Assembly (NCBI GenBank): GCA_019636335.1 | Contig: JAHBXR010000010.1 | Span: 1-64,000 of the forward strand | Source: Pirellulales bacterium | GTDB lineage: Bacteria > Planctomycetota > Planctomycetia > Pirellulales > JAEUIK01 | DNA: 64,000 nt | Direction of reading: 5' to 3' | In this document: in pieces, positions 8,056 through 59,677 of the stretch | Layout: every line of letters begins with the position of its first letter | How positions within the stretch are numbered: position 1 is the first letter of the stretch | The notes under the pieces: model-generated | What the model was told of the DNA's origin: nothing | Databases searched by the model: none | Seen by the model: only the letters and a program-made list of their open reading frames with translations | Translations under genes and position numbers: made by a program

Positions 8056-10350
8056 TCAGCCAGCCTGGTGGCTCGTCAACATGCCGAGCATTCCCTCGGG
8101 CTCGTCGTCCAAAAAATGCATCTCGCCGGTGGTGACGTCGTACATGGCGCCGACGATGGCGATCCGCCCCAGGCGCACCAGCTCGGCAAGCGTTTCGCTC
8201 TCTTGCACGAGGCTGGCCACCGAATGTCGCACGTTGGCGCGCGCGACGCCGTTCGTGTAGGCCTCTTTTTCCGCGTCCGATCCGCTGCTTTGCGCCGCGA
8301 ATTCATCGCGGTCGATCGACTTCTGGATCTCGCCGAGCACCGTCTCGACATTCTGGCAACCCGTCACATCGGCCACCGGCTGCGTGATGTCGTAGAGATT
8401 CACAGCGGTCGACACGGCGCCGCAACGGGTGTGCCCCATCACCAGGATCAGCTTTGCTCCGGCGACGGCGCAACCATATTCGATGCTGCCCAGAATCTTG
8501 CGGCTGGTGACGTTGCCGGCGATGCGCACGCTGAAGATGTCTCCCACCCCCAGATCGAACACGAGCTCCGCCGGCGTGCGCGAGTCGATGCAACTCAGCA
8601 CGACGGCCAGCGGATGCTGACCGGCCGCGGTGGCTAACACTTGTCGGCCCAGATCGCGATTCAAACGCCGGCCTCGTCGGAAGCGCTCGTGCCCCTCCTT
8701 CAAGATCTGCAGTACCTGCGCCGGCGTGACGTTCTTCTGCAGTTCGCGCGTGGAGTAGTCGACGTAGTGAATCTGGTCCTGCAATTGGTACTTGTTGCGG
8801 AACCCGACCAGGCTGACTTCGATCTGGCGCGCGGGGGCCTTCTTCAACTTGAAGTCGCGGATCATGTCGAGCACGTCGGGATCGATATAGTCGGTCCCTT
8901 GGGCGTCGAGCAGCACGTGCCCGCCGCGGGGCACGTTGTCGAGCGCCTTGGCGAGCGAGGCTCGATTCAAGAAGCTGACCTGGTTGGCCAGCTCGATGTG
9001 CAGCACGTCCCCCCCCAAGTGCTTCTCGACCACGCGGCGCAACGGCCGCCGCAGGTTGCTATTGAGAATGAAGCTGATACTCACAGCCAGGCCGACCAGG
9101 ATGCCCGTCAGCAAATCGGTGAAGACGATCGCCACGACCGTTACCACAAAGGGGACGAATTGGTACCGGCCGGCCGCCCACATCTGCCGCACGAGTTGGG
9201 GGCTGGCAAGCTTGGCCCCCGTGACGATCAGGATCGCCGCCAGGCACGCGAGCGGAATGGTATTCAGCCACGTCGGCAGCGCCATCACGGAGACGAACAG
9301 CAACCCGCCGTGGAAGATCGTCGCCAGCTTGCTCTGCGCTCCCGAGTTGATGCTCAACGAGCTGCGCACGATGACGGTCGCGACGGGAATCCCCCCCAGC
9401 AGGCCCGTGGTCACGTTGCCCACCCCCTGGGCGACGAGCTCGCGCCCCCGCGGCGACGTGCGCTGGCGCGGATCGAGCTTGTCGATCACCTCCAGATTCA
9501 ACAGCGATTCGAGCGATGCCACCAACGCGATCGTCAACGCGGCCAGATAGACTGCCGGGTTGCGCCACTGCGAAAAATCGGGCAGCTCTTGAAAGGCAAA
9601 AAAATCGGAAAGCGTCTGCGCCACAGGCACCTGCACCAGGTGCTCGGGACCAATGGCCCACTTGCCGCCGATACGATCGAGCAACACGCTGATGGCAATG
9701 CCCAGCGCAACCACCGCCAACGGAATCGGCAAGGTCATTCGCTTGAGGGCCGGCCAGCGGTCCCACAAAATCAACAGCCCAATGCACGACAGACCAATGG
9801 CCGTCGCGCCTGGGTGAATATGGAAAGGGAGATCCAGCACCTCGGTCAGGGTGGTCTCCATGTCGGGCTGGAAGAACGACATTTCCCCTTCCGGATCGGT
9901 GTCGTCACCCAGCAAGTGAGGCAACTGCTTCAAGATCAAGAGCAGGCCGATCGCGGCCAACAATCCCTTGACGACGCTGGTGGGGAAAAAGGCCGCGATA
10001 AACTCGGCCCGCATCAGTCCCAGCACGATCTGCATCACGCCGGCGATGACCACCGCCAGCAGAAACGCCTGAAACGACCCCAAGACCGCGATCTGCGCAG
10101 CCACGACGGCGGTCAAACCGGCGGCAGGTCCGCTAACGCTGACTTGGGAGCCGCTGACCAACCCCACCACGATGCCCGCCACGATCCCGGCAATAATCCC
10201 CGAGATCAGCGGCGCGTTCGACGCCAGCGCGATCCCCAGGCACAGGGGCAAGGCCACCAGGAACACCACCGTCCCTGCCAGCAGATCGCGCACGATCGAA
10301 CTGGGGTTCAGCGGACCGGCAGGATTCGGCGTCGTTGCGGAAGTGCTCAT
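8056..10350 (-). CDS. SulP anion transporter fused to STAS and beta-carbonic anhydrase
   Basis: 764 residues in three parts. First is a SulP membrane domain (about 10-430; [19 protein letters not shown] at the N-terminus, GPAAGLTAVVAA in the core). Next is a STAS domain (about 445-545; HVLLDAQGTDYIDPDVLDM). Last is a complete beta-carbonic anhydrase (about 555-755). The zinc ligands are Cys587 (VLSCIDSR), His640 and Cys643 (MGHTRCGAV), with the Asp589-Arg591 dyad intact, so the enzyme domain should be active. SulP-carbonic anhydrase fusions are known in other bacteria and are taken to move bicarbonate (or exchange it for another anion) while interconverting CO2 and HCO3-. It sits next to ClC, a second SulP and Dab genes, which supports a role in inorganic carbon or pH. 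Sulfate transport remains possible. Confidence 0.92.
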   Translation of the reverse strand: MSTSATTPNPAGPLNPSSIVRDLLAGTVVFLVALPLCLGIALASNAPLISGIIAGIVAGIVVGLVSGSQVSVSGPAAGLTAVVAAQIAVLGSFQAFLLAVVIAGVMQIVLGLMRAEFIAAFFPTSVVKGLLAAIGLLLILKQLPHLLGDDTDPEGEMSFFQPDMETTLTEVLDLPFHIHPGATAIGLSCIGLLILWDRWPALKRMTLPIPLAVVALGIAISVLLDRIGGKWAIGPEHLVQVPVAQTLSDFFAFQELPDFSQWRNPAVYLAALTIALVASLESLLNLEVIDKLDPRQRTSPRGRELVAQGVGNVTTGLLGGIPVATVIVRSSLSINSGAQSKLATIFHGGLLFVSVMALPTWLNTIPLACLAAILIVTGAKLASPQLVRQMWAAGRYQFVPFVVTVVAIVFTDLLTGILVGLAVSISFILNSNLRRPLRRVVEKHLGGDVLHIELANQVSFLNRASLAKALDNVPRGGHVLLDAQGTDYIDPDVLDMIRDFKLKKAPARQIEVSLVGFRNKYQLQDQIHYVDYSTRELQKNVTPAQVLQILKEGHERFRRGRRLNRDLGRQVLATAAGQHPLAVVLSCIDSRTPAELVFDLGVGDIFSVRIAGNVTSRKILGSIEYGCAVAGAKLILVMGHTRCGAVSTAVNLYDITQPVADVTGCQNVETVLGEIQKSIDRDEFAAQSSGSDAEKEAYTNGVARANVRHSVASLVQESETLAELVRLGRIAIVGAMYDVTTGEMHFLDDEPEGMLGMLTSHQAG

Positions 10351-10457
10351 GCCTGACAGGGTAACGGCAACGCCAGCAGGGGGAAATGCTGCTTGCCGAG
10401 ACTCGGCCAGAAATCGAACGATTCACCCCAAATTGAGATCCGACTGGGCAACAACGG

Positions 10458-12332
10458 TCAGCCCGGGCCGTTCGGCCGGGGCACACGGCCAAACAGGGGC
10501 AGGGTGGGACGGTCGTGTACCGTTTCGCGCAAACGGCGACGGTAGCCCGAGAGAATATCGCGCCGGGTCACGATCCCCACCAGGCGGTGCGGCGCCGCAC
10601 GAGTGACGACTGGCAGGCGCCCCACGCCATGATTCAGCATATGATCGGCCGCCTGCCGGACGCTGCAATCTTCGTAGACGAAACGCGGGCTGCGGCAGAT
10701 CAGGTCGGCCACGGTAGACGTGCCTTGATAATCGGGGTTCAACAACTCTCTTCGCGCGACGACCCCCACCAGCACGCCACGTGCGTCGAGCACCGGGTAG
10801 ACCGGATGAAGATGATCGGCCCGCACCAGCATCCGCTCGAGCACGTCGGTGACGCGGTCCGAGACGAGCAACGAGACGACCTGCCGCACGGCTACGTCAC
10901 GCACCAGGATCTGGTCGAGTGGATCGGCAAGGTATTCGTGCGGAGTGCGCACGCCGCGCCGCGCAATTTTCTCCGTCATGATCGAATTGCGCATCACCAG
11001 GCTGGCCGCGAGGTAAGCGGCCGCACAGCCTCCCATCAGCGGCAGCAGGCCCAGCGGTTGCAGCGTCGTCTCGAACGCGAAGACTGCCGAGGCCAGCATG
11101 GCACGCGAGGCGCCAGAAAACATCGCCGCCATGCCCACCAGCGCCGCCATGCGCGGGTCGACCCCCAGAGCGGGCGCCACGAGTGCGATCGCCGAACCCA
11201 GCGCTGCCCCCACGCCACCGCCGATCGTGAACAACGGGGCCAGCGTCCCCCCCGACGTCCCGCTACCCAGAGCAATCGACCAGGACAGAAACTTCATTCC
11301 GCACAGGAAGATCACCGTGGCCACCGGCAGGCGATTGGAGAGCAGATCGCGGATGTTGTAGTAGCCCACGCCCAACGTATCGGGCTCGAAATAGCCCACG
11401 ATTCCCACAGCGACGGCGCCGATGGCGGGCCACCACATCCAGTGCAGCGGCAGTCGCTCGAAACCGTCCTCGATGGCATAAACGATACGCGTCACCGCGA
11501 CGGCCACGATCCCCATCAACGCCCCAATCAACACATAGGCAAGCAGGGCCGCGATGCTGGGTTGCGCCAGGTTCGGCATCGCGAAGACCGGCTCCATCCC
11601 TTCGAAGATCCCGCGCACCCCCGTCGCCATGACTGCCGCCAGTGCCACCGGGATGATCGAACGGGGACGATACTCGAACAGCAACAATTCGATCGCCAGC
11701 AGCACCGCCGACACGGGGCTGCCGAACGTGGCCGCCATGCCCGCCGCCGCTCCGGCCGATAAGAGCGTCTTGCGTTCAGAGGTCGACACGTGAATCGCCT
11801 GGCCCAGCACCGACCCCAGCGCGCTTCCCGTGGCAATAATCGGCCCTTCGGCGCCAAACGGGCCTCCCGTGCCGATCGAAATGGCCGAAGAGATCGGCTT
11901 GAGAAACGTCATGCGGGCCGGAATGCGACTTTCATTCGTCAGCACCTGCTCCATGGCCTCGGGAATACCGTGACCGCGGATGGCCTTCGAACCGAAGCGA
12001 GCCATCAGACCAACGACCAGCGCTCCGAGCACGGGAATCGGCACGACCCACCAGCCCAGATTCGGCACGGCGGCGGCAGGCACGACGTCGACGAACGAGA
12101 GTCGTCCGAAGAAGGCCAGGTTCGTTACCAGCGCGATCAGTAACAGCAGGGCCTGCGCCACGAAGGCCGCAACGAATCCCAACAGCGCGGCCAGCCCGCA
12201 AATGAACACCGCACGGCGATCGATCGCCGCGTGCTGGGCCGGCAACTGTACCGACTCGAGCACCGTATTCAGCGCAGGCGTGATCGTCAGGCCATCGACC
12301 GTTGCAGATTGAGCAAGCGGATGTTCTTGCAT
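10458..12332 (-). CDS. ClC-family chloride channel/antiporter with CBS pair
   Basis: 624 residues with a ClC membrane domain (about 20-450) and two cytosolic CBS domains (about 470-600). Anion-path motifs are visible: GHGIPEAMEQV (position of GSGIP), GPFGAEGPIIATGS with the gating glutamate preserved, and GSGTSGGTLAPLFTIGGG. The gating Glu suggests anion/proton exchange rather than a passive channel. The CBS pair (VGVVARRELLNPD, LVGIVTRRDILSG) may sense adenine nucleotides. The ATG at 12332 is preferred over a TTG 63 nt upstream. It lies 82 nt after the SulP-PII gene and 107 nt before the SulP-carbonic anhydrase gene on the same strand. It could balance charge or pH during bicarbonate uptake. 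Confidence 0.93.
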   Translation of the reverse strand: MQEHPLAQSATVDGLTITPALNTVLESVQLPAQHAAIDRRAVFICGLAALLGFVAAFVAQALLLLIALVTNLAFFGRLSFVDVVPAAAVPNLGWWVVPIPVLGALVVGLMARFGSKAIRGHGIPEAMEQVLTNESRIPARMTFLKPISSAISIGTGGPFGAEGPIIATGSALGSVLGQAIHVSTSERKTLLSAGAAAGMAATFGSPVSAVLLAIELLLFEYRPRSIIPVALAAVMATGVRGIFEGMEPVFAMPNLAQPSIAALLAYVLIGALMGIVAVAVTRIVYAIEDGFERLPLHWMWWPAIGAVAVGIVGYFEPDTLGVGYYNIRDLLSNRLPVATVIFLCGMKFLSWSIALGSGTSGGTLAPLFTIGGGVGAALGSAIALVAPALGVDPRMAALVGMAAMFSGASRAMLASAVFAFETTLQPLGLLPLMGGCAAAYLAASLVMRNSIMTEKIARRGVRTPHEYLADPLDQILVRDVAVRQVVSLLVSDRVTDVLERMLVRADHLHPVYPVLDARGVLVGVVARRELLNPDYQGTSTVADLICRSPRFVYEDCSVRQAADHMLNHGVGRLPVVTRAAPHRLVGIVTRRDILSGYRRRLRETVHDRPTLPLFGRVPRPNGPG

Positions 12333-49033: not shown

Positions 49034-49294
49034 GCGGCGTTTCTCCTGTCGCGAAGTAACGTCCCGTCCCAGGGACGCCGTGCCTTCGGGGACTGAACGC
49101 ATATTCTTCCATTGATGCGTTCGGAATGCAAGCAAAAGTGCCTTTGGGCGGCGAGTCGTAAGTTCAATCCCCGCTTGAGAATGTCGCGTAGGATGGAAGA
49201 GACGCACGATCCTCTCTTGGCGAAGGGGTCAACGCGGAGTGGTACAATCGCCTCTCCAGAGCTTCGCTATTCGATCGGCAGGGCAGGGGACACG

Positions 49295-49837
49295 ATGGAC
49301 AACTTCGATCCAGTCACGGCGTACAAGGCGGGAAACTCGCGCGAGGGCCATCTTATACTCCAGCTTCTCGAACAGGCAGGCATCCAGGGACGTGTCGCCA
49401 GCAACGGCGTCGAGTTCATCGCCGGCGAGTTGCCCTACCAGGTCGCTAGCTGTCCGATCCTGGTTCACCGCGCCGATCTCGAGCGGGCCCACGAAGTTAT
49501 CGAACGTTACGAGGAGACCCTCTGCGGCGATCGCGAACCGTGGGTGCCGGAGGATGAACGCTACTGCTACCACTGCGGCGAGCCAGTCGAATCCGCGGGC
49601 ACCGTCTGTCCCGCCTGCAAGCTTCCCCTCGACTGGCCAGCCGCCCCCGAAGCAGAAGAGGACGAAGTGGAGGCTCGGTTTCATTACCGTCATTGGATCA
49701 GGGCGTTCGTTCTCCTGGTTGCCCTGCTGCTCTTTCTGACTCGCACGCCGTGGGCTGTGATCGTGATAGCGGTTGTAGTGGTTGAAATGATCATGGCCTA
49801 CGACGCCGCGCGCTCGAAAAAGCTAAGCAACAGTTAG
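49295..49837 (+). CDS. DUF2007-domain membrane protein with zinc ribbon
   Basis: 180 residues. The N-terminal DUF2007 fold (about 1-75; NSREGHLILQLLEQAGIQGR, PILVHRADLERAHEVIERYE) is a small ferredoxin-like domain found in putative signal-transducing proteins. A zinc ribbon follows (CYHCGEPV and CPACKLPL, about 92-118), then two membrane helices at the C-terminus (AFVLLVALLLFLTRT, WAVIVIAVVVVEMIMAY). The ATG has AGGGGA just upstream. The gene is monocistronic and ends in a nested hairpin. Function unknown. Confidence 0.85.
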   Translation: MDNFDPVTAYKAGNSREGHLILQLLEQAGIQGRVASNGVEFIAGELPYQVASCPILVHRADLERAHEVIERYEETLCGDREPWVPEDERYCYHCGEPVESAGTVCPACKLPLDWPAAPEAEEDEVEARFHYRHWIRAFVLLVALLLFLTRTPWAVIVIAVVVVEMIMAYDAARSKKLSNS

Positions 49838-52677: not shown

Positions 52678-54660
52678 ATGGGCATGCGAAACTCACTGAG
52701 CATGGGTTCGTACGGGGGCAGCGTCGCTTGGCGCGGTGTGTTCCTATTTCTCTTGGGCGTGCTTCGACGCCGGCTAGCAGGCTGTGGTGATGGCAAGTCG
52801 CGTTGCGCTGCGTCGTTCCTAGTCGCCGCAATGCTCGCGGTTCACGTGGCGTTGCTCGCGTGGAGCGCCTATCGCCATAGCCCGGTGAATACCGAGGTCG
52901 GTCATCTTCCGGCGGGCATCAGCCACTGGAGATTCGGCCGCTTCGATCTCTATCGCGTGAATCCTCCGCTGGTCAGGATGGTGGCCGCGCTGCCGGTGCT
53001 CTACGCGCGGCCGGCCACCTACTGGAACCACTACAGCACCGACCCGCTCGTGCGGAGCGAAACGCAGGTCGGCATCGACTTTGTGAACGCCAATGGCGCG
53101 CGCACCTTTTGGCTCTATACGCTCGGACGCTGGGCATGCATCCCCTTCAGCTTGATCGGCGCGTGGGTCTGTTATCGCTGGGCGAGTGCGTTGTATGGTT
53201 CGGCCTCGGGACTCGCGGCGCTGGCGCTGTGGTGCTTTTGCCCCAACGTCTTGGGGAACGGCGCGCTGGTGATGCCCGACGTGCCTGCGGCTGCCTTGGG
53301 GGCCGCAGCGTGTTATCTGTTTTGGCGCTGGCTGCAATCCCCCACGTGGTTCGGCGGTCTCGCCGCCGGCGCCGTGTTGGGCGTGGCCGAGCTGACAAAG
53401 ACCACGCTCCTCGTGTTCTTTCCGCTTTGGCCGCTCGTGTGGATCGCCTACCGATGGTCGCAAGGTTGGTCGCGCGAGCCGCGCCGCTGGCAGCGCGAAA
53501 CCACCATGCTCGCCGCTTCGCTCGTGGTCGGCCTCTACGTCATCAACCTCGGCTATGGCTTCGAGGGAAGTTTCGAGCGGCTGCGCGATTACACGTTCAA
53601 GAGCCATTTGTTGACGGGCGCGCCGGCCGACGATCGAGCGTTTGCGCCGGGCAATCGTTTCGCGGAAACGCCGCTCGCGGCTCTTCCCGTTCCATTACCG
53701 CGCGATTATCTGCAGGGCATCGACGCGCAAAAACTCGATTTCGAGCGCGGCATGCCCTCCTATCTGCGCGGCCAGTGGAGCGACCGCGGCTGGTGGTACT
53801 ACTACCTCTACGGCCTGGGGATCAAGCTGCCGCTCGGGACGCTGGCGCTCGTGGGGCTGGCTGCGCTCGCCGCTATCTGTTTGCGCGAGGGGCGTGCGTC
53901 ATGGCGCGACGACCTCGCGCTACTCGCGCCGTGCGCGGCGATCATTGTCCTGGTCAGCTCGCAGAACGGCTTCAGCGTCCATTTTCGCTACGTGTTGCCG
54001 GCGCTGCCGTTCTTGTTCATTTGGGCCAGCAAGCCCTTTGCCTTCGCCGGTGGCCAGCGGACAGTGAGCAGTGGGCAGCGGTGGAGCGAACCCTTGCCAT
54101 TTGTTCAAGCCGCGCGGCGGCCACTCTTGGTCGGTATGTCGGTCGTGGCGCTCGCCTGGTCGGTGGCGTCTAGCTTGTGGTACTACCCGCACAGCCTCTC
54201 GTATTTTAACGAGCTAGTGGGTGGCCCGGAACATGGTCACGAACACCTGCTCGATAGCAGCATCGCCTGGGGGCAAGACCTGCTGTACTTGAAGGAGTGG
54301 CACGACGCGCACCCCGAGGCACGGCCGTTCTATTTGGCCGCGTCCACACGCATTAACCCACGACAGTTGGGTATGCACGTCCGCCTTCCACCATTCGCTC
54401 TGAAAGAAGTGTCGGGATCCTCTGTCACTGTCAAGAATGCGCAAGGTAACGGCCAGCAGCCGGGCTGGTATGCCATCGACGTAAACTTTTTGAAGGGTGC
54501 GGATCTCTTCACCCCTGACGGCATGGGGGACTTCCAGCGTGCTTCCGAGCTTGATCTTGGCACACTTCGCGCGCACTCACCTGTGGCGCGCGCGGGCTAC
54601 TCGTTCTGGATTTACGAACTGAAAACGAAAAACACCTCCGACGCATTTGTTGACATGTAG
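52678..54660 (+). CDS. Membrane glycosyltransferase of GT39/ArnT type
   Basis: 660 residues, about 11 membrane segments. The first extracytoplasmic loop carries Glu-Val and Asp motifs characteristic of PMT/ArnT proteins (YRHSPVNTEVGHLPAGISHW, FGRFDLYRVNPPLVRMVAAL). Typical later segments are VMPDVPAAALGAAACYLFWR and SLSYFNELVGGPEHGHEHLL. Enzymes of this group move a sugar from a polyprenyl-phosphate donor to a protein or lipid on the outer face. The GQRTVSSGQRWSEPLPF stretch near 460 looks like an inserted repeat. It is followed after 4 nt by the MauE-like gene. Confidence 0.85.
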   Translation: MGMRNSLSMGSYGGSVAWRGVFLFLLGVLRRRLAGCGDGKSRCAASFLVAAMLAVHVALLAWSAYRHSPVNTEVGHLPAGISHWRFGRFDLYRVNPPLVRMVAALPVLYARPATYWNHYSTDPLVRSETQVGIDFVNANGARTFWLYTLGRWACIPFSLIGAWVCYRWASALYGSASGLAALALWCFCPNVLGNGALVMPDVPAAALGAAACYLFWRWLQSPTWFGGLAAGAVLGVAELTKTTLLVFFPLWPLVWIAYRWSQGWSREPRRWQRETTMLAASLVVGLYVINLGYGFEGSFERLRDYTFKSHLLTGAPADDRAFAPGNRFAETPLAALPVPLPRDYLQGIDAQKLDFERGMPSYLRGQWSDRGWWYYYLYGLGIKLPLGTLALVGLAALAAICLREGRASWRDDLALLAPCAAIIVLVSSQNGFSVHFRYVLPALPFLFIWASKPFAFAGGQRTVSSGQRWSEPLPFVQAARRPLLVGMSVVALAWSVASSLWYYPHSLSYFNELVGGPEHGHEHLLDSSIAWGQDLLYLKEWHDAHPEARPFYLAASTRINPRQLGMHVRLPPFALKEVSGSSVTVKNAQGNGQQPGWYAIDVNFLKGADLFTPDGMGDFQRASELDLGTLRAHSPVARAGYSFWIYELKTKNTSDAFVDM

Positions 54661-54664
54661 TATC

Positions 54665-55315
54665 ATGATCGCGCACTTCCGCGCTCTCGCGCGTTTCGAC
54701 ATCGTGCGAGCCAGCATGACTGCCATTTTACTGGTGGCTGCCGGATTCAAGGCACACCATCTTCTGCTGACGAACGAGATCGAGGCCAGCGCAACTCTTT
54801 TCTCATCGCCGTGGTTCATGCTAGCCACGATTGAGTTCGAGTTGCTCTTGGCATTGTGGCTTATCTCAGGCGTGTATCTTGATACGGCGCTGGCCGCGTG
54901 CTTCGCATCCTTCTGTGCCTTTCAATGCGTGGCCTTTGCCGAGGGTCTCTTGGGGCGGCAGTCGTGCGGATGCTTCGGGACTGCTCGCGTCTCCCCATGG
55001 TCCATGTTTCTTGTGGACTTGATCGCTGTTGGAGCGTTGGGGTGGCGTATCACTCGCGGCACAGATTGCTTTCGAGGGCAAACGTGGGGATTGCGATCGC
55101 GACGTCCGATCATTGCTATGCTCGCGATTTCGATCGCGAACGGCGCATGGTTCGCATTCCTCGTAACGAACAGCGACCCACGAAGTGTGGAGCGTGAAAC
55201 GGGACACCCCATGATGACGCGTCTTGATCGCGCTCGTCGCGATATCCCGTCGTATTTTTTCAGTAACACGCGATCCGCTTCATTAATTGAACACGAGAAG
55301 CTTGCCCCTTGGTGA
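54665..55315 (+). CDS. MauE/DoxX-like redox-associated membrane protein
   Basis: 216 residues with four or five membrane segments. The pattern ASMTAILLVAAGFKAHHLLL, LATIEFELLLALWLISGVYL and RQSCGCFGTARVSPWSMFLV is that of the MauE family, whose Cys-Gly-Cys loop is linked to disulfide chemistry in methylamine dehydrogenase maturation. No other mau gene is present. It lies 4 nt after the glycosyltransferase and 12 nt before a DUF1573-like gene, so all three are probably co-transcribed. The C-terminal 40 residues are soluble and basic. The region is less GC-rich than the rest of the window. Confidence 0.78.
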   Translation: MIAHFRALARFDIVRASMTAILLVAAGFKAHHLLLTNEIEASATLFSSPWFMLATIEFELLLALWLISGVYLDTALAACFASFCAFQCVAFAEGLLGRQSCGCFGTARVSPWSMFLVDLIAVGALGWRITRGTDCFRGQTWGLRSRRPIIAMLAISIANGAWFAFLVTNSDPRSVERETGHPMMTRLDRARRDIPSYFFSNTRSASLIEHEKLAPW

Positions 55316-55327
55316 GGATATAACACG

Positions 55328-55873
55328 ATGACTGGCTCCGACATCATTCTGAAGGACGCTCATCATACGGTGGGCACATTACAGGACAGCGCCGCCGTCG
55401 GTGACGCGGCTCGCGCGTCGCGCGACAGTCTATATATGCTTAAGCTCCTAGGCATACCGTCCCTCGTCGCGATCTCATTGGTCGCCGGCGTGTGCCTCTG
55501 GGCCGCGCAAAAAACTGGCTCCATGCGCGCAGGTCTCGCCTACTTGCGCGGAGATCGCCTGTTTGCAGCCGCAACGGGTCCGATTCAATGGAACGGCGAC
55601 ACGGCAACGCGCCAGGCGTCGGGAACCATCGAGATCGCCAATTTCTCGGATGAAGCGATTCGGATCGTGGGCTACAACAACCCGTGCCTTTGTGTGCGCA
55701 TCGTTGGATTGCCACTGGTAATCCGCCCGCACGAACGGGTGACATTGGTGGTGGAGGGCAAAGCGGGATCCGAAGAACGAACGGCCTCCGTCGAATTCTT
55801 GACCGACGATGCGGTACAGCCCAGAGTCCCGGTGAACGTGGTGATCCCGCTCCTCCCAAGCCAGGAGGATTGA
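55328..55873 (+). CDS. Membrane-anchored DUF1573-like protein
   Basis: 181 residues. A single membrane segment (LGIPSLVAISLVAGVCLWAA, about 42-62) follows a polar 40-residue N-terminus. The extracytoplasmic domain (about 90-180) resembles DUF1573/ASH-type Ig folds: ASGTIEIANFSDEAIRIVGY, then NNPCLCVRI with a Cys-x-Cys pair at the place where DUF1573 proteins have CGCT, then LVIRPHERVTLVVEGKAG. It follows the MauE-like gene closely. A thiol-linked partnership with MauE and the Cys-rich peptide downstream is inference. Confidence 0.65.
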   Translation: MTGSDIILKDAHHTVGTLQDSAAVGDAARASRDSLYMLKLLGIPSLVAISLVAGVCLWAAQKTGSMRAGLAYLRGDRLFAAATGPIQWNGDTATRQASGTIEIANFSDEAIRIVGYNNPCLCVRIVGLPLVIRPHERVTLVVEGKAGSEERTASVEFLTDDAVQPRVPVNVVIPLLPSQED

Positions 55874-55978
55874 CGTGGACGTTGACTCGAGAAGTAAGGC
55901 AGCAGTACGGATCACGTTTAAAAACGGCAATTGTCGTTTCCGTTTGTTTCCCACTTTTTCCTTTGATTGGAGATTGAG

Positions 55979-56215
55979 ATGATGTACTCGACGATCCGAT
56001 TGGCTTCGCTATCCTTCCAGGTGTGCGGCTTACTCCTGATCTGCGCATCCTTCACGTCTTCACTCGCTATTGCGCAAGAAGACATCCTTAGACCGTGCAG
56101 CAGTGCAGCCTGTGATCCTTGTTGCACGCAAAACAATGCGAAATGCACGGGGAATTGCCAATGCGACAACTGTACATGCAATAAAAGCGGTGGCGTGCAG
56201 CAGTGCTATCTGTAG
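55979..56215 (+). CDS. Second small exported cysteine-rich protein
   Basis: 78 residues. The signal peptide is SFQVCGLLLICASFTSSLAI, with likely cleavage near AIAQ. The mature part of about 40 residues holds ten cysteines (CSSAACDPCC, KCTGNCQCDNCTCNKSGG, then QQC) and is otherwise polar. This Cys density suggests a disulfide-rich or metal-binding peptide. It is unlike the first Cys-rich protein (9 Cys, Arg-rich) in spacing and charge. GGAG sits 6 nt before the ATG; a second ATG follows directly. It lies in the operon-like row with the MauE-like and DUF1573-like genes. No family is recognised. Confidence 0.75.
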   Translation: MMYSTIRLASLSFQVCGLLLICASFTSSLAIAQEDILRPCSSAACDPCCTQNNAKCTGNCQCDNCTCNKSGGVQQCYL

Positions 56216-56408
56216 TGCCGCGCCGTCGTCCAGCGAATGACTACGCCTGAACTCCGGTCCGCGCAGTCAATGAGCCGAGGGCACCAATAGAAATCCATGG
56301 CGCGTAAATGCACGTCCGAAAAAAACTGTGGCTCATTGGCTGCGCGCACGGCAAACAAGGTCGAAGAGTCTCCAATGCGTACACCAACAATGTGAATGGC
56401 TGCAAGTC

Positions 56409-57422
56409 ATGATCCTATTACGTGAGTCTACATTTCTACTGATGGTTTCGTTCGCCGGTGTCGCTAGCGGCCAAGACGCTCTGGAGGCGAGTTTTAAATC
56501 AGAGGCGCCGCTTGGATGGCAGGCGCTCGAAGGCAAGATAAGCCGGCTGTCAGGCTCATTTGTCGAGGTGTCCGATACGATCCCCAACAAAGGAAATAGC
56601 AGCAAACACCGCCCTATAAAGGTAGTTGTGGAATTCCACATCTCCCCCGATGCAAAAAAGGTAGTGACAGATTTTTGGGACGAGTCGGGGAAATGGGAAT
56701 CGCGGCGCGTGCATGGCATGAACCCAGACTATGCGTTCAAGGCAGCCCAGACAGTTCAAGGAGGGGACTACTATATCACCGAGTGCGGCAATGGAAAGAC
56801 GAGAGATGATATCGAGAACATCATCCTGTTTGCTGGTATCAACTTGGTGCGAAGTTCGTTCGGTATCGAGTCCGATGTCCGAACGCTGCAGGAGATCGTG
56901 CAAAGCGAAGGGTTCAAGATTCTCAAATGCACTTCGGTGCCTCATGAAGGCCGCGAGCTGGTGCAGGTGAAGTGTCAGTTCAATCCCATCGGCCTGGCTG
57001 CCGAGCAGCACCCCGGCCCGACAACAGCCACGTTGCTGCTCGATCCAGACGCCCACTGGCGAGTGGTCCGCAGCGAATCACAATACGTTCGGCGCGATGG
57101 CCAGTCCGTATCGTCCGATATGGAGGTCACCTATTCCGACGGCGCGGCCGAGGAGGCCAATATTTCCAGAATTGCATGGCACCTCAAGGATGGCTCGGGC
57201 TACCTGACCAACACGGTGGATTTTTCCGCATTGTCAAACGCCCCAATTCCGTCCTCTGACTTTTATCTGCCGTCGCTCGGACTGCCCGATTGTCCGGGGA
57301 TCAACGTGCAAGGGCCTCCCTCGCCCTGGAAGTTGCTGCTCATTGGCATCAACTTGCTGGTGGTGGGTACCGTTTTGGCGGTCATCTTGCGGCGAAAATT
57401 TCGGCCGCGTCCCGCACCTTGA
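56409..57422 (+). CDS. Exported protein with C-terminal membrane anchor, unknown function
   Basis: 337 residues. N-terminal signal (STFLLMVSFAGVASGQ), a long extracytoplasmic part rich in beta-strand patterns (RPIKVVVEFHISPDAKKVVT, VRRDGQSVSSDMEVTYSDGA) and a C-terminal membrane helix (LLLIGINLLVVGTVLAVILR) followed by RRKFRPRPAP. No domain is recognised. This type of protein often precedes DUF1559 genes in planctomycetes. The ATG at 56409 lies right before the signal; upstream in-frame codons are less likely. Only 9 nt separate it from the DUF1559 gene. Confidence 0.7.
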   Translation: MILLRESTFLLMVSFAGVASGQDALEASFKSEAPLGWQALEGKISRLSGSFVEVSDTIPNKGNSSKHRPIKVVVEFHISPDAKKVVTDFWDESGKWESRRVHGMNPDYAFKAAQTVQGGDYYITECGNGKTRDDIENIILFAGINLVRSSFGIESDVRTLQEIVQSEGFKILKCTSVPHEGRELVQVKCQFNPIGLAAEQHPGPTTATLLLDPDAHWRVVRSESQYVRRDGQSVSSDMEVTYSDGAAEEANISRIAWHLKDGSGYLTNTVDFSALSNAPIPSSDFYLPSLGLPDCPGINVQGPPSPWKLLLIGINLLVVGTVLAVILRRKFRPRPAP

Positions 57423-57431
57423 GGAGTCGCC

Positions 57432-58514
57432 ATGCATCGCCGCCCGGCCATGACGTTGATTGAAGTGCTGATCGCGGTGGCGATCATCTCGCTGTTGATT
57501 GCGTTGCTGATTCCCGCCGTGCAAGGTACTCGCGAGGCAGCGCGGCGCACGCAGTGCCAGAACAACCTGCGGCAGTATGGGGTGGGCCTGTTGAATTTCG
57601 AGGCGGCGAGAACGCGGTTCCCCTCGGCGATTACGGTCGAGGTGCAGGGTCCGCTGGGGAGCAATTCGGAATGGGTCGTCTACGACTACATGGCCGATTT
57701 GCTGCCTTACCTCGAGGCGGACGCCGGCGCGCCCACGATGCACTCGGCGTCGTTCTTCGCCAAGGAAAACGAGCCGGTTGTGAGCCGCACGCCGGCGGTA
57801 GCCATATGCCCCTCGGCGCCGACGCGCGATCACTTCGAGCCCACCTCGTTCGTGCCGTCGCTGGCGGTGCCCCATATCGTGCCCGGCCCCTACAGCGACG
57901 CCATGCTACAGCCCATGTGGGACTTTCTCGACAAGAAGTACGCCGGCAGCTATCGCGGCGGCTTCTCCGATTACACGGTGGCATGGGGGGCCGAACGCAC
58001 GCTGGCGCTCAACCTCGGCTACTCGAAGTTGGACTACCCCATCACGCCGTCGTTCGACTTGGGGTTGGCCAGCATGTTTCCCTTGTTCAATGATGAACCT
58101 GCGCATGTGTTCACCAAGCTGCTTCAAGTGTTGGGCTCGACGAAAAAGACGACGTTTTCGAGTGGACTCTCCGCCGGACAAATCACCGACGGCCTTTCGA
58201 ACACGTTCATGGTGATCGAGGTAGCGGGCCGCCCGCAACGGTGGGTCGCCGGATGGCGGGATGAGGGCTCCGAGCCAGCGGAGGCTCCCTGGGCAGACCC
58301 CCGAAGCGTTCTCTTCTTGCAAGGGTCCGACGCAGGCACGGCGACATTGATCCAAGCCGACAACACGCGCGGGCTCTATAGCTTCCATCCCGGCTGCGCC
58401 AACCTGGTATTCGCGGATGGGCGCGTCGAAGCGGTCAGCGAAGCGATCGACCCGCGCGTCATTCTGCGCTGGATGACGCCCGCCAAGGAAGATAACGCGG
58501 AGCAAAGCCCGTGA
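57432..58514 (+). CDS. DUF1559 prepilin-like protein
   Basis: 360 residues. Prepilin leader HRRPA then MTLIEVLIAVAIISLLIALL, with Glu at mature position 5. The body shows the DUF1559 hallmark AARRTQCQNNLRQYGVGLLN and the C-terminal H-X9-DG signature (FHPGCANLVFADGRVEAVSE). Planctomycetes encode tens of such pilin-like surface proteins with unknown roles. AGGAG lies 5 nt before the ATG. The stop overlaps the next GTG by 4 nt (GTGA), which indicates coupling to the esterase-like gene. Confidence 0.95.
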   Translation: MHRRPAMTLIEVLIAVAIISLLIALLIPAVQGTREAARRTQCQNNLRQYGVGLLNFEAARTRFPSAITVEVQGPLGSNSEWVVYDYMADLLPYLEADAGAPTMHSASFFAKENEPVVSRTPAVAICPSAPTRDHFEPTSFVPSLAVPHIVPGPYSDAMLQPMWDFLDKKYAGSYRGGFSDYTVAWGAERTLALNLGYSKLDYPITPSFDLGLASMFPLFNDEPAHVFTKLLQVLGSTKKTTFSSGLSAGQITDGLSNTFMVIEVAGRPQRWVAGWRDEGSEPAEAPWADPRSVLFLQGSDAGTATLIQADNTRGLYSFHPGCANLVFADGRVEAVSEAIDPRVILRWMTPAKEDNAEQSP

Positions 58515-59458
58515 GCGTTCCCACGTTGGCAATACTGGTTGGCGCGCTCACGCTGGGGACATCCGATCTAGATTTTCTCTCGTTGTTTGAGGATCTGGAA
58601 TTTCGCGTCGATAGCGGGCCGCTCGAAGGTGGCGTGGTACGCTACCGGTTGTTCATTCCCGAAGACAACTTGGATGAACAGTTCCCGCTGATTGTGTGGC
58701 TACACGGGTACGGTGATTGCGGCGAAACAAATGTGAGCCAACTACGGTGGCTCGACCAACTCGTGTTCAATGCGCCGCGAGATCGCCGCCGCTTTCCGTT
58801 CTACTTGTTGGCAGTGCAATGCCCATGCGTGAATGGGCTTTGGTTCCACCAAGTGTCGGTACTTGGCGAGCCTGCCTCCGACGACATGCTGGCCATGCAC
58901 TACAAGGTCGTGCAGAGTTTGCTGGCGGAACGCCGGATCGATAAAAATCGCATCTACTTGACGGGACTATCGTTGGGGGGCACCGCGTGTTGGGAGTTCG
59001 CCAAGCGCTATCCCGACTTGTTTGCCGCCGTAGCGCCGTTGGCGTCGGAAGGAAGCGTGAGTGACGGTCTGGATCGGCTCATCCACCTGCCGATCTGGGC
59101 GTTCCATTCGCGCGACGACGCCTGGACTCCACCGACCGGCGTGCGCCGCACGGTTGACGAGCTTGCGCGCCTGAATGGCAGCGTCGATTTAACCGAGGTC
59201 AATACGGTGAGCCACGATTGCTGGACCCTCGCCTTCCGCGACTATCATCTGCTCGATTGGCTCCTCGCGCAGCGCCGCGGCGAGTCCGCAACCTGGGCAC
59301 CGGGCACGGTGCCCTTGCGTCTTCGGCTGCAAGACGAACTCCGGCGCTTCACATGGTGGCAACTCTTGGCTCAGTTTGCCGTGGTCGCGCTCCCCCTCGT
59401 TCTGGCGTGGTGGGCGCTGTGGCGGCGCACGTCCGTTATCGCAGGTCAGCCCACGTGA
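58511..59458 (+). CDS. Membrane-anchored alpha/beta hydrolase (PHB depolymerase/esterase-like)
   Basis: 315 residues. The N-terminus is weakly hydrophobic (TLAILVGALTLGTSDLDFLS). The hydrolase core has IVWLHGYGDCGETN (oxyanion region), ILTG-type serine motif in YLTGLSLGGTACWEFAKRYP, acid in FHSRDDAWTPP and His in VSHDCWTLAF. A C-terminal membrane helix (LAQFAVVALPLVLAWWALWR) tethers it to the membrane, the same layout as the protein two genes upstream. The start is a GTG overlapping the DUF1559 stop. The substrate is unknown. Confidence 0.8.
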   Translation: MSVPTLAILVGALTLGTSDLDFLSLFEDLEFRVDSGPLEGGVVRYRLFIPEDNLDEQFPLIVWLHGYGDCGETNVSQLRWLDQLVFNAPRDRRRFPFYLLAVQCPCVNGLWFHQVSVLGEPASDDMLAMHYKVVQSLLAERRIDKNRIYLTGLSLGGTACWEFAKRYPDLFAAVAPLASEGSVSDGLDRLIHLPIWAFHSRDDAWTPPTGVRRTVDELARLNGSVDLTEVNTVSHDCWTLAFRDYHLLDWLLAQRRGESATWAPGTVPLRLRLQDELRRFTWWQLLAQFAVVALPLVLAWWALWRRTSVIAGQPT

Positions 59459-59467
59459 GGTACACCA

Positions 59468-59677
59468 ATGGCCGCCGAACAAACAGAAGGATCGCCTTGG
59501 CTAGGGGCCTTATTGCTCGTCAGCCTGCTGACGCTTCTTTTCCAACTCTTTCCGAGCTTAGGGTGGAGTCTGCTCTCAATCATCGACGTTCGCGGGTGGT
59601 CGTGGCGATCGTACGCGACCGTCAGCACCGTGGCGATCGTTGTGCTGGTTGCGATCAAGATCTGGCGCGATCGGTAA
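59468..59677 (+). CDS. Small two-helix membrane protein
   Basis: 69 residues with two membrane helices (WLGALLLVSLLTLLFQLF and SYATVSTVAIVVLVAIKIW) and short polar ends. GAGG lies 8-9 nt before the ATG, and the gene starts 9 nt after the esterase stop, so it is probably translated with that operon. No family is recognised. Confidence 0.65.
   Translation: MAAEQTEGSPWLGALLLVSLLTLLFQLFPSLGWSLLSIIDVRGWSWRSYATVSTVAIVVLVAIKIWRDR

Follow-up and report, generated by a model that had tools for sequence, protein, structure and literature searches.

The window analysed here, the first 64,000 nucleotides of contig JAHBXR010000010.1 in the 6.4-Mb assembly of a planctomycete of the order Pirellulales, contains a conserved block of eight tightly packed genes on the + strand (52678-59677) that probably forms a dedicated oxidative-folding and export/maturation module, the client of which would be an exported disulfide-rich peptide; judging from sequence, we put the probability of this reading at about 0.68. 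In order, the genes encode a GT-C glycosyltransferase, a MauE-like protein, a DUF1573-like protein, a peptide with ten mature cysteines, a LolA-like protein, a DUF1559 protein, an esterase and a small membrane protein (Table 1). The genes, their linkage, the fusions found among relatives, the folds of two of the parts, the parity of the cysteine counts and, at one locus, the joint divergence of two products are established. The planctomycete literature consulted for DUF1573, DUF1559 and MauE yielded no account of this gene set, which appears to be previously undescribed and to recur in variants across the phylum.

The association of these genes extends well beyond the window. Our loci comprised the surroundings of MauE matches and named planctomycete contigs, in a genome sample with many fragmented members; exported Cys-rich open reading frames (ORFs) were defined by a hydrophobic signal and at least seven Cys in a short mature part, a rule applied to gene calls made by script that both misses peptides (as at locus L043) and over-calls. 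Where sequences are related, the counts below should not be read as independent trials. Same-strand neighbours up to 5 kb from MauE include such an ORF at 34 of 45 well-flanked loci, a DUF1573 gene at 33 and a LolA-like gene at 26, compared with 7, 0 and 0 of 64 control neighbourhoods from the window's own genome, which bears out the co-occurrence of MauE-like, DUF1573-like and Cys-rich genes expected by an earlier, sequence-only reading of this region. In the kilobase that follows MauE, taken over 74 distinct homologues, the same strand carries 0.38 exported Cys-rich ORFs per kb and the opposite strand none; more than 4 kb away the figure is 0.014 per kb, about 27-fold lower. For the pattern scan a 5-row MauE alignment was used, a 17-row one being too diverse. 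In the order, a MauE profile matched 46 of the 296 genomes searched, which represent 33 of 121 genera and often have several copies each. Searching the same 296 genomes with a profile of the short peptide gave 14 matches: 13 adjoin DUF1573 and LolA-like genes, and the remaining one, inside a 451-residue frame, we take as spurious. The peptide family is thus found only beside these two genes, and not, as an unconserved neighbourhood would have it, independently of them. A further cluster, in Singulisphaera (L109, 6898-7818), encodes a 68-residue exported peptide with six mature Cys followed by DUF1573 and MauE-thioredoxin genes, and the module therefore reaches another planctomycete family.

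Gene fusions connect the same parts. The window's MauE-like gene is the sole PF07291 match above cut-off in its genome, and the CGC loop that had been ascribed to it is present as CGCFG after the third helix; the CxC is kept in 17 of 17 rows of the MauE alignment (A1) and in every homologue counted. Stand-alone forms number 13, including that of the window, where DUF1573 is the next gene, while 17 homologues are MauE-DUF1573 fusions and 44 are fused to a thioredoxin-like domain, with an invariant CxxC in all 44 as well as a TP motif. A profile of this CxxC domain finds thioredoxin/PDI chains in the PDB, though weakly (best E 0.0046; range 0.005-0.03). The MauE tree (72 rows, 130 columns) does not resolve: DUF1573 fusions cluster more than shuffled labels do, and one or several origins both fit. 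At a separate locus in a Phycisphaeraceae genome (L107, 7767-13347), a MauE-thioredoxin fusion lies directly upstream of GspE- and GspF-like genes and several prepilin-type genes, a possible link of the MauE family to pseudopilus export with type II secretion-like neighbours.

The partner domain goes with the size of the peptide, the median mature length being 57 amino acids beside the DUF1573 type and 129 beside the thioredoxin type, or type B (p = 2e-5). A C39 peptidase domain is also found in some type B clusters, often as a fusion with DUF1573 (Pfam E 1e-14 in L103). By the rule for C39 double-glycine leaders, which places hydrophobic residues at -4, -7 and -12 (PMC10885120), a script recognised such leaders in 5 of 11 precursors in C39 loci (6 with one added by eye) and in 1 of 34 elsewhere (p = 4e-4). 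Neither a C39 peptidase gene nor a double-glycine leader is present in the window module; both belong to type B relatives. One type thus couples DUF1573 to MauE and the other couples it to the leader peptidase, which makes DUF1573 a candidate peptide holder: the fusions suggest that it would be the part holding the peptide.

The sequence-only reading had described a membrane-anchored DUF1573-like protein with a Cys-x-Cys pair, which holds as to architecture: there is one transmembrane helix and a Cys-Leu-Cys pair, and the AlphaFold2 (AF2) model (pLDDT 91.6) consists of one helix plus an immunoglobulin-like (Ig) domain of PapD/HYDIN type that matches HYDIN, MSP and Porphyromonas gingivalis 2qsv. 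The family name stands by way of relatives, as the window protein has no PF07610 match at E<=1 in Pfam but is a homologue of the part that forms the C-terminal half in MauE-DUF1573 fusions, and relatives in L038 (27.5 bits) and L044 (26.2 bits) exceed the cut-off of 26.1 bits. Elsewhere, in L217 (3070-4371), a family 2 glycosyltransferase (GT2) of polyprenyl-phosphate-sugar type is seemingly fused to a DUF1573 domain, adjoining LolA-like and PIG-V-like genes; similar free GT2 genes lie near GT-C in L050 and L214.

The peptide of the window has a signal ending in AIA (AIA^Q, of the AxA type) and a mature part of 46 amino acids with 10 Cys (QEDILRPCSSAACDPCCTQNNAKCTGNCQCDNCTCNKSGGVQQCYL), and by the rule above it is the sole signal-plus-Cys-rich ORF in the 64 kb. 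None of the peptides scanned matched a Pfam or NCBIfam family at E<=10, nor did the window peptide at E<=1. The NVEALA family (PF14055) of Bacteroidetes likewise comprises small exported peptides rich in Cys, in which a motif separates the signal from the Cys-rich part, but membership was rejected, as the family was not matched in these same scans. A search with the single sequence gave no convincing relatives of the window peptide, which were found later by the family profile; against the PDB this profile hit only a defensin-like chain, not significantly (E 2.3). The mature Cys count is even in 51 of 64 non-redundant peptides adjoining module genes (p = 2e-6, a generous value given that the peptides are related, hence not independent trials, and that the cut sites are predicted). 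Such evenness fits full disulfide pairing, which demands it, while metal binding does not, and together with MauE and the CxxC domain it favours disulfides over metal as the probable state of these cysteines.

The tightest partner of the peptide is the LolA-fold protein. It has no Pfam match by sequence, but its AF2 model (pLDDT 83.8) aligns with the LolA/LolB superfamily over about 150-209 residues at VIA-align Z scores of 13.1 to 8, the best being 13.1 for the DUF1329 structure 4z48, 12.8 for 3bk5 and 12.6 for P. gingivalis LolA3, to which Foldseek gives an E of 3.6e-9. Unlike LolA, which is soluble, the window protein has a C-terminal transmembrane anchor. The tandem units at L156 are identical across 444 bp, from the end of the DUF1573-coding sequence through the signal-sequence codons, and again across at least 491 bp from the end of the LolA gene onwards; the stretch between these tracts, which encodes the mature peptide and the periplasmic LolA domain, has diverged in both parts to roughly 40-70%. 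Weaker forms of the pattern occur in L178 and L176. This is what cognate partners look like, and the LolA-like domain could accordingly be a carrier, a receptor or an immunity protein. L178 also repeats the peptide-LolA pair in a tandem array and contains one 515-residue frame (9720-11267) that combines a Cys-rich leader region with a LolA-like domain; in L212 (4055-5275) a MauE-like first helix reads in frame into a LolA-like domain, whether as a genuine fusion or as the scar of a deletion.

In the mechanism that we propose, the peptide would be exported by Sec and cut by signal peptidase I, and the periplasmic CxC of MauE would pass oxidising equivalents to its cysteines; the client would be held by the DUF1573 Ig domain, the CxC of which might also relay thiol exchange. 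From its anchor in the inner membrane, the LolA-fold protein would bind the mature peptide as its cognate partner, whether carrier, receptor or protector, and the GT-C enzyme, the esterase and the pseudopilin-like protein may contribute accessory steps, possibly glycosylation or ester hydrolysis. Several observations weigh against this scheme. At 11 of the 45 well-flanked MauE loci no Cys-rich ORF was found by the rule (in at least one case, L043, a miss of the rule), and 13 of the 64 peptides have odd Cys counts, some from a misplaced cut that includes a Cys of the membrane segment. Of the CxC that comes last in the family, the window peptide retains a single Cys, and the DUF1573 CxC is missing in 13 of 62 homologous ORFs and is therefore not obligatory for catalysis. 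Finally, DUF1573-peptide-LolA units without MauE exist (L171-L173, L175, L203, L204, L206 and L210), so that MauE is common but dispensable and another oxidant must serve there. The earlier proposal that the peptide is the client of MauE thus gains from linkage, fusions and even Cys counts, but not in the form of an obligatory dependence.

Outside the cell, the peptide might act in antagonism, in signalling or in wall building. Antagonism, with bacteriocin-like peptides and the LolA-like protein as cognate immunity protein, is compatible with the maturation mechanism. It would explain why mature peptide and LolA domain have diverged together while the tracts around them are identical, and is in keeping with the surplus of LolA-like copies over peptides in L044, L176 and L210, with the patchy occurrence of MauE (46 of 296 genomes, up to 7 paralogues in one) and with the bacteriocin-like C39 domains and double-glycine leaders of some variants; however, no peptide scanned matched a toxin family (Pfam/NCBIfam, PDB profile search), the LolA fold is more often a lipid or lipoprotein binder and the window module has no ABC exporter, which makes this a tentative option at best. 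Planctomycetes have cystine-rich walls, and a cystine-rich peptide might instead cross-link or decorate their proteinaceous outer layer. The DUF1559 pseudopilin-like and GT-C genes within the module point that way, as does a gene adjoining a DUF1573-peptide-LolA unit in L210 (9060-9722), the product of which has many TCxYTVC repeats and presumably resembles the YTV-type wall proteins of the phylum. Patchy distribution and a fast-diverging mature part are nevertheless ill-suited to a basic structural component, and the genome is rich in DUF1559 in any case (34 matches); we find envelope building somewhat harder to credit than antagonism, and the 'envelope' in the name first given to this module is not borne out.

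An exported metallothionein-like or copper-binding peptide is less likely again. The KCxxxCxCxxCxC of the mature window peptide is the kind of CxC-rich sequence that binds soft metals, and the DUF1573 Ig model resembles PCuAC copper chaperones, if among many other Ig folds, but the even Cys counts and the MauE and thioredoxin-like CxxC partners of relatives argue otherwise, as do longer relatives without CxC clusters, a module without metal transporter or sensor and a window peptide without Pfam match. That unrelated genes lie together by chance is scarcely believable: DUF1559 and glycosyltransferases are common in planctomycetes, yet enrichment, fusions and the genome-wide peptide search refute chance for MauE, DUF1573, the peptide and the LolA-like gene, a refutation that does not extend to every accessory gene.

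Known systems offer partial parallels to an oxidative-folding module of this kind. MauE and MauD serve methylamine dehydrogenase, and a published account calls the disulfide role of MauE speculated (PMC7794033). As with the small subunit of that enzyme in Paracoccus, MauE and a thioredoxin-like partner (MauD, or the fused domain of planctomycete relatives) stand beside an exported Cys-rich client; in contrast, the planctomycete client is a small peptide without enzyme partner, a LolA-fold partner is added, and in the window type the DUF1573 Ig domain replaces the thioredoxin-like one. No methylamine dehydrogenase subunit genes were found among the neighbours scanned. The nearest published parallel is three candidate families that decRiPPter found in Streptomyces: all have mauE, one also mauD, their precursors contain 8 or more Cys, and peptide modification was likewise inferred; DUF1573, LolA-fold, GT-C and DUF1559 are not reported in the portion of that paper drawn on here, and the planctomycete precursors differ in their Sec-type signal peptides (PMC7794033). 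Glycocin clusters (sublancin, thermoglycocin, orniglycocin) also combine a Cys-rich precursor with thioredoxin-like thiol-disulfide proteins, a glycosyltransferase and, like type B variants, a C39 peptidase, but in the part of the account used here the glycosyltransferase is not GT-C but GccA-type, the C39 peptidase belongs to an ABC transporter, and MauE, DUF1573, DUF1559 and a LolA-fold protein are not among the components (PMC12457901).

If the proposed module is real, DUF1573, DUF1559, the membrane-anchored LolA-like family and a branch of MauE would gain a shared context in the making of a Cys-rich exported peptide, and the MauD/MauE idea would widen from one enzyme subunit to a class of peptides. 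In a phylum with poorly understood cell biology, it would also offer a first pointer to secreted disulfide-rich peptides, and the fusions of MauE to DUF1573 or thioredoxin and of C39 to DUF1573 point to protein pairs whose joint action is worth testing. More speculatively, and with the odds rather against it, planctomycetes might have a whole class of diversifying disulfide-rich secreted peptides, each with its own MauE-DUF1573 (or MauE-thioredoxin plus C39-DUF1573) maturation complex and a co-diversifying membrane-anchored LolA-fold receptor or immunity partner.

The sequence-only reading had confined the module to 52678-56215 and to four genes, GT39-type (PMT_2), MauE-like, DUF1573-like and a 78-residue exported peptide with ten Cys. 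All four are real, but the block runs on to 59677 with four further genes (LolA-like, DUF1559, esterase and small transmembrane protein) that are found again in homologous clusters. Its ends are clear, because the flanking genes do not recur there: the upstream M48 peptidase gene, on the opposite strand, has no homologues in the fetched clusters and the downstream DEAD-box helicase gene one weak match (25%).

Table 1. Features of the conserved block, with positions in the window
Feature	Position	Strand	Basis or remark
GT-C (PMT_2/GT39-like) membrane glycosyltransferase	52678..54660	+	Pfam PMT_2 36.2 bits, cut-off 26.1
MauE-like membrane protein, SCGCFG loop, stand-alone (unfused)	54665..55315	+	PF07291 32.1 bits, cut-off 27
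Membrane-anchored DUF1573-like protein (PapD/HYDIN-type Ig), Cys-Leu-Cys	55328..55873 (inner start 55436)	+	Homology to MauE-DUF1573 fusions; AF2 model
Terminator-like hairpin with T run, in the gap from the DUF1573-like to the peptide gene	55922..55939	+	Possible attenuator, weak
Exported 78-residue Cys-rich peptide	55979..56215	+	Predicted signal peptidase I site; family profile A3
LolA/LolB-fold protein, signal peptide and C-terminal transmembrane helix	56409..57422 (alternative GTG start 56328)	+	AF2; structure searches
DUF1559 (PF07596) protein, prepilin-type N-terminus	57432..58514	+	Pfam 109.7 bits
PHB-depolymerase-type alpha/beta hydrolase, N-terminal signal, C-terminal transmembrane helix	58511..59458	+	Esterase_PHB 30.3 bits
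Small protein of 69 residues with two transmembrane helices, final gene of block	59468..59677	+	Homologues in L037, L039, L144

Most genes of the block overlap or lie less than 15 bp apart, the MauE-like gene beginning 4 bp past the GT-C stop; the peptide gene is set off by 105 bp before and 193 bp after it. The number of terminator-like sites in the region, including the hairpin at 55922, is no higher than chance. The GT-C gene is the sole match of its kind in the genome, and a homologue with 56% identity adjoins MauE in L037, as others do elsewhere. Among the accessory genes, the DUF1559 protein has 44% identical homologues in the L037 and L039 clusters, esterase homologues occur at about 14 MauE loci (47% identity in L037), and the small protein with two transmembrane helices is 47%, 43% and 40% identical to its counterparts in L037, L039 and L144. 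The stretch had also been described as less GC-rich than its surroundings, and indeed the GC content is 0.588, 0.564 and 0.531 across 54-57 kb against about 0.63 around it, with 56001-57000 the lowest-GC kilobase of the window. Upstream of the block and outside the module, positions 49112-49837 encode a protein that combines a zinc-ribbon-like stretch of paired CxxC with a membrane region at its C-terminus.

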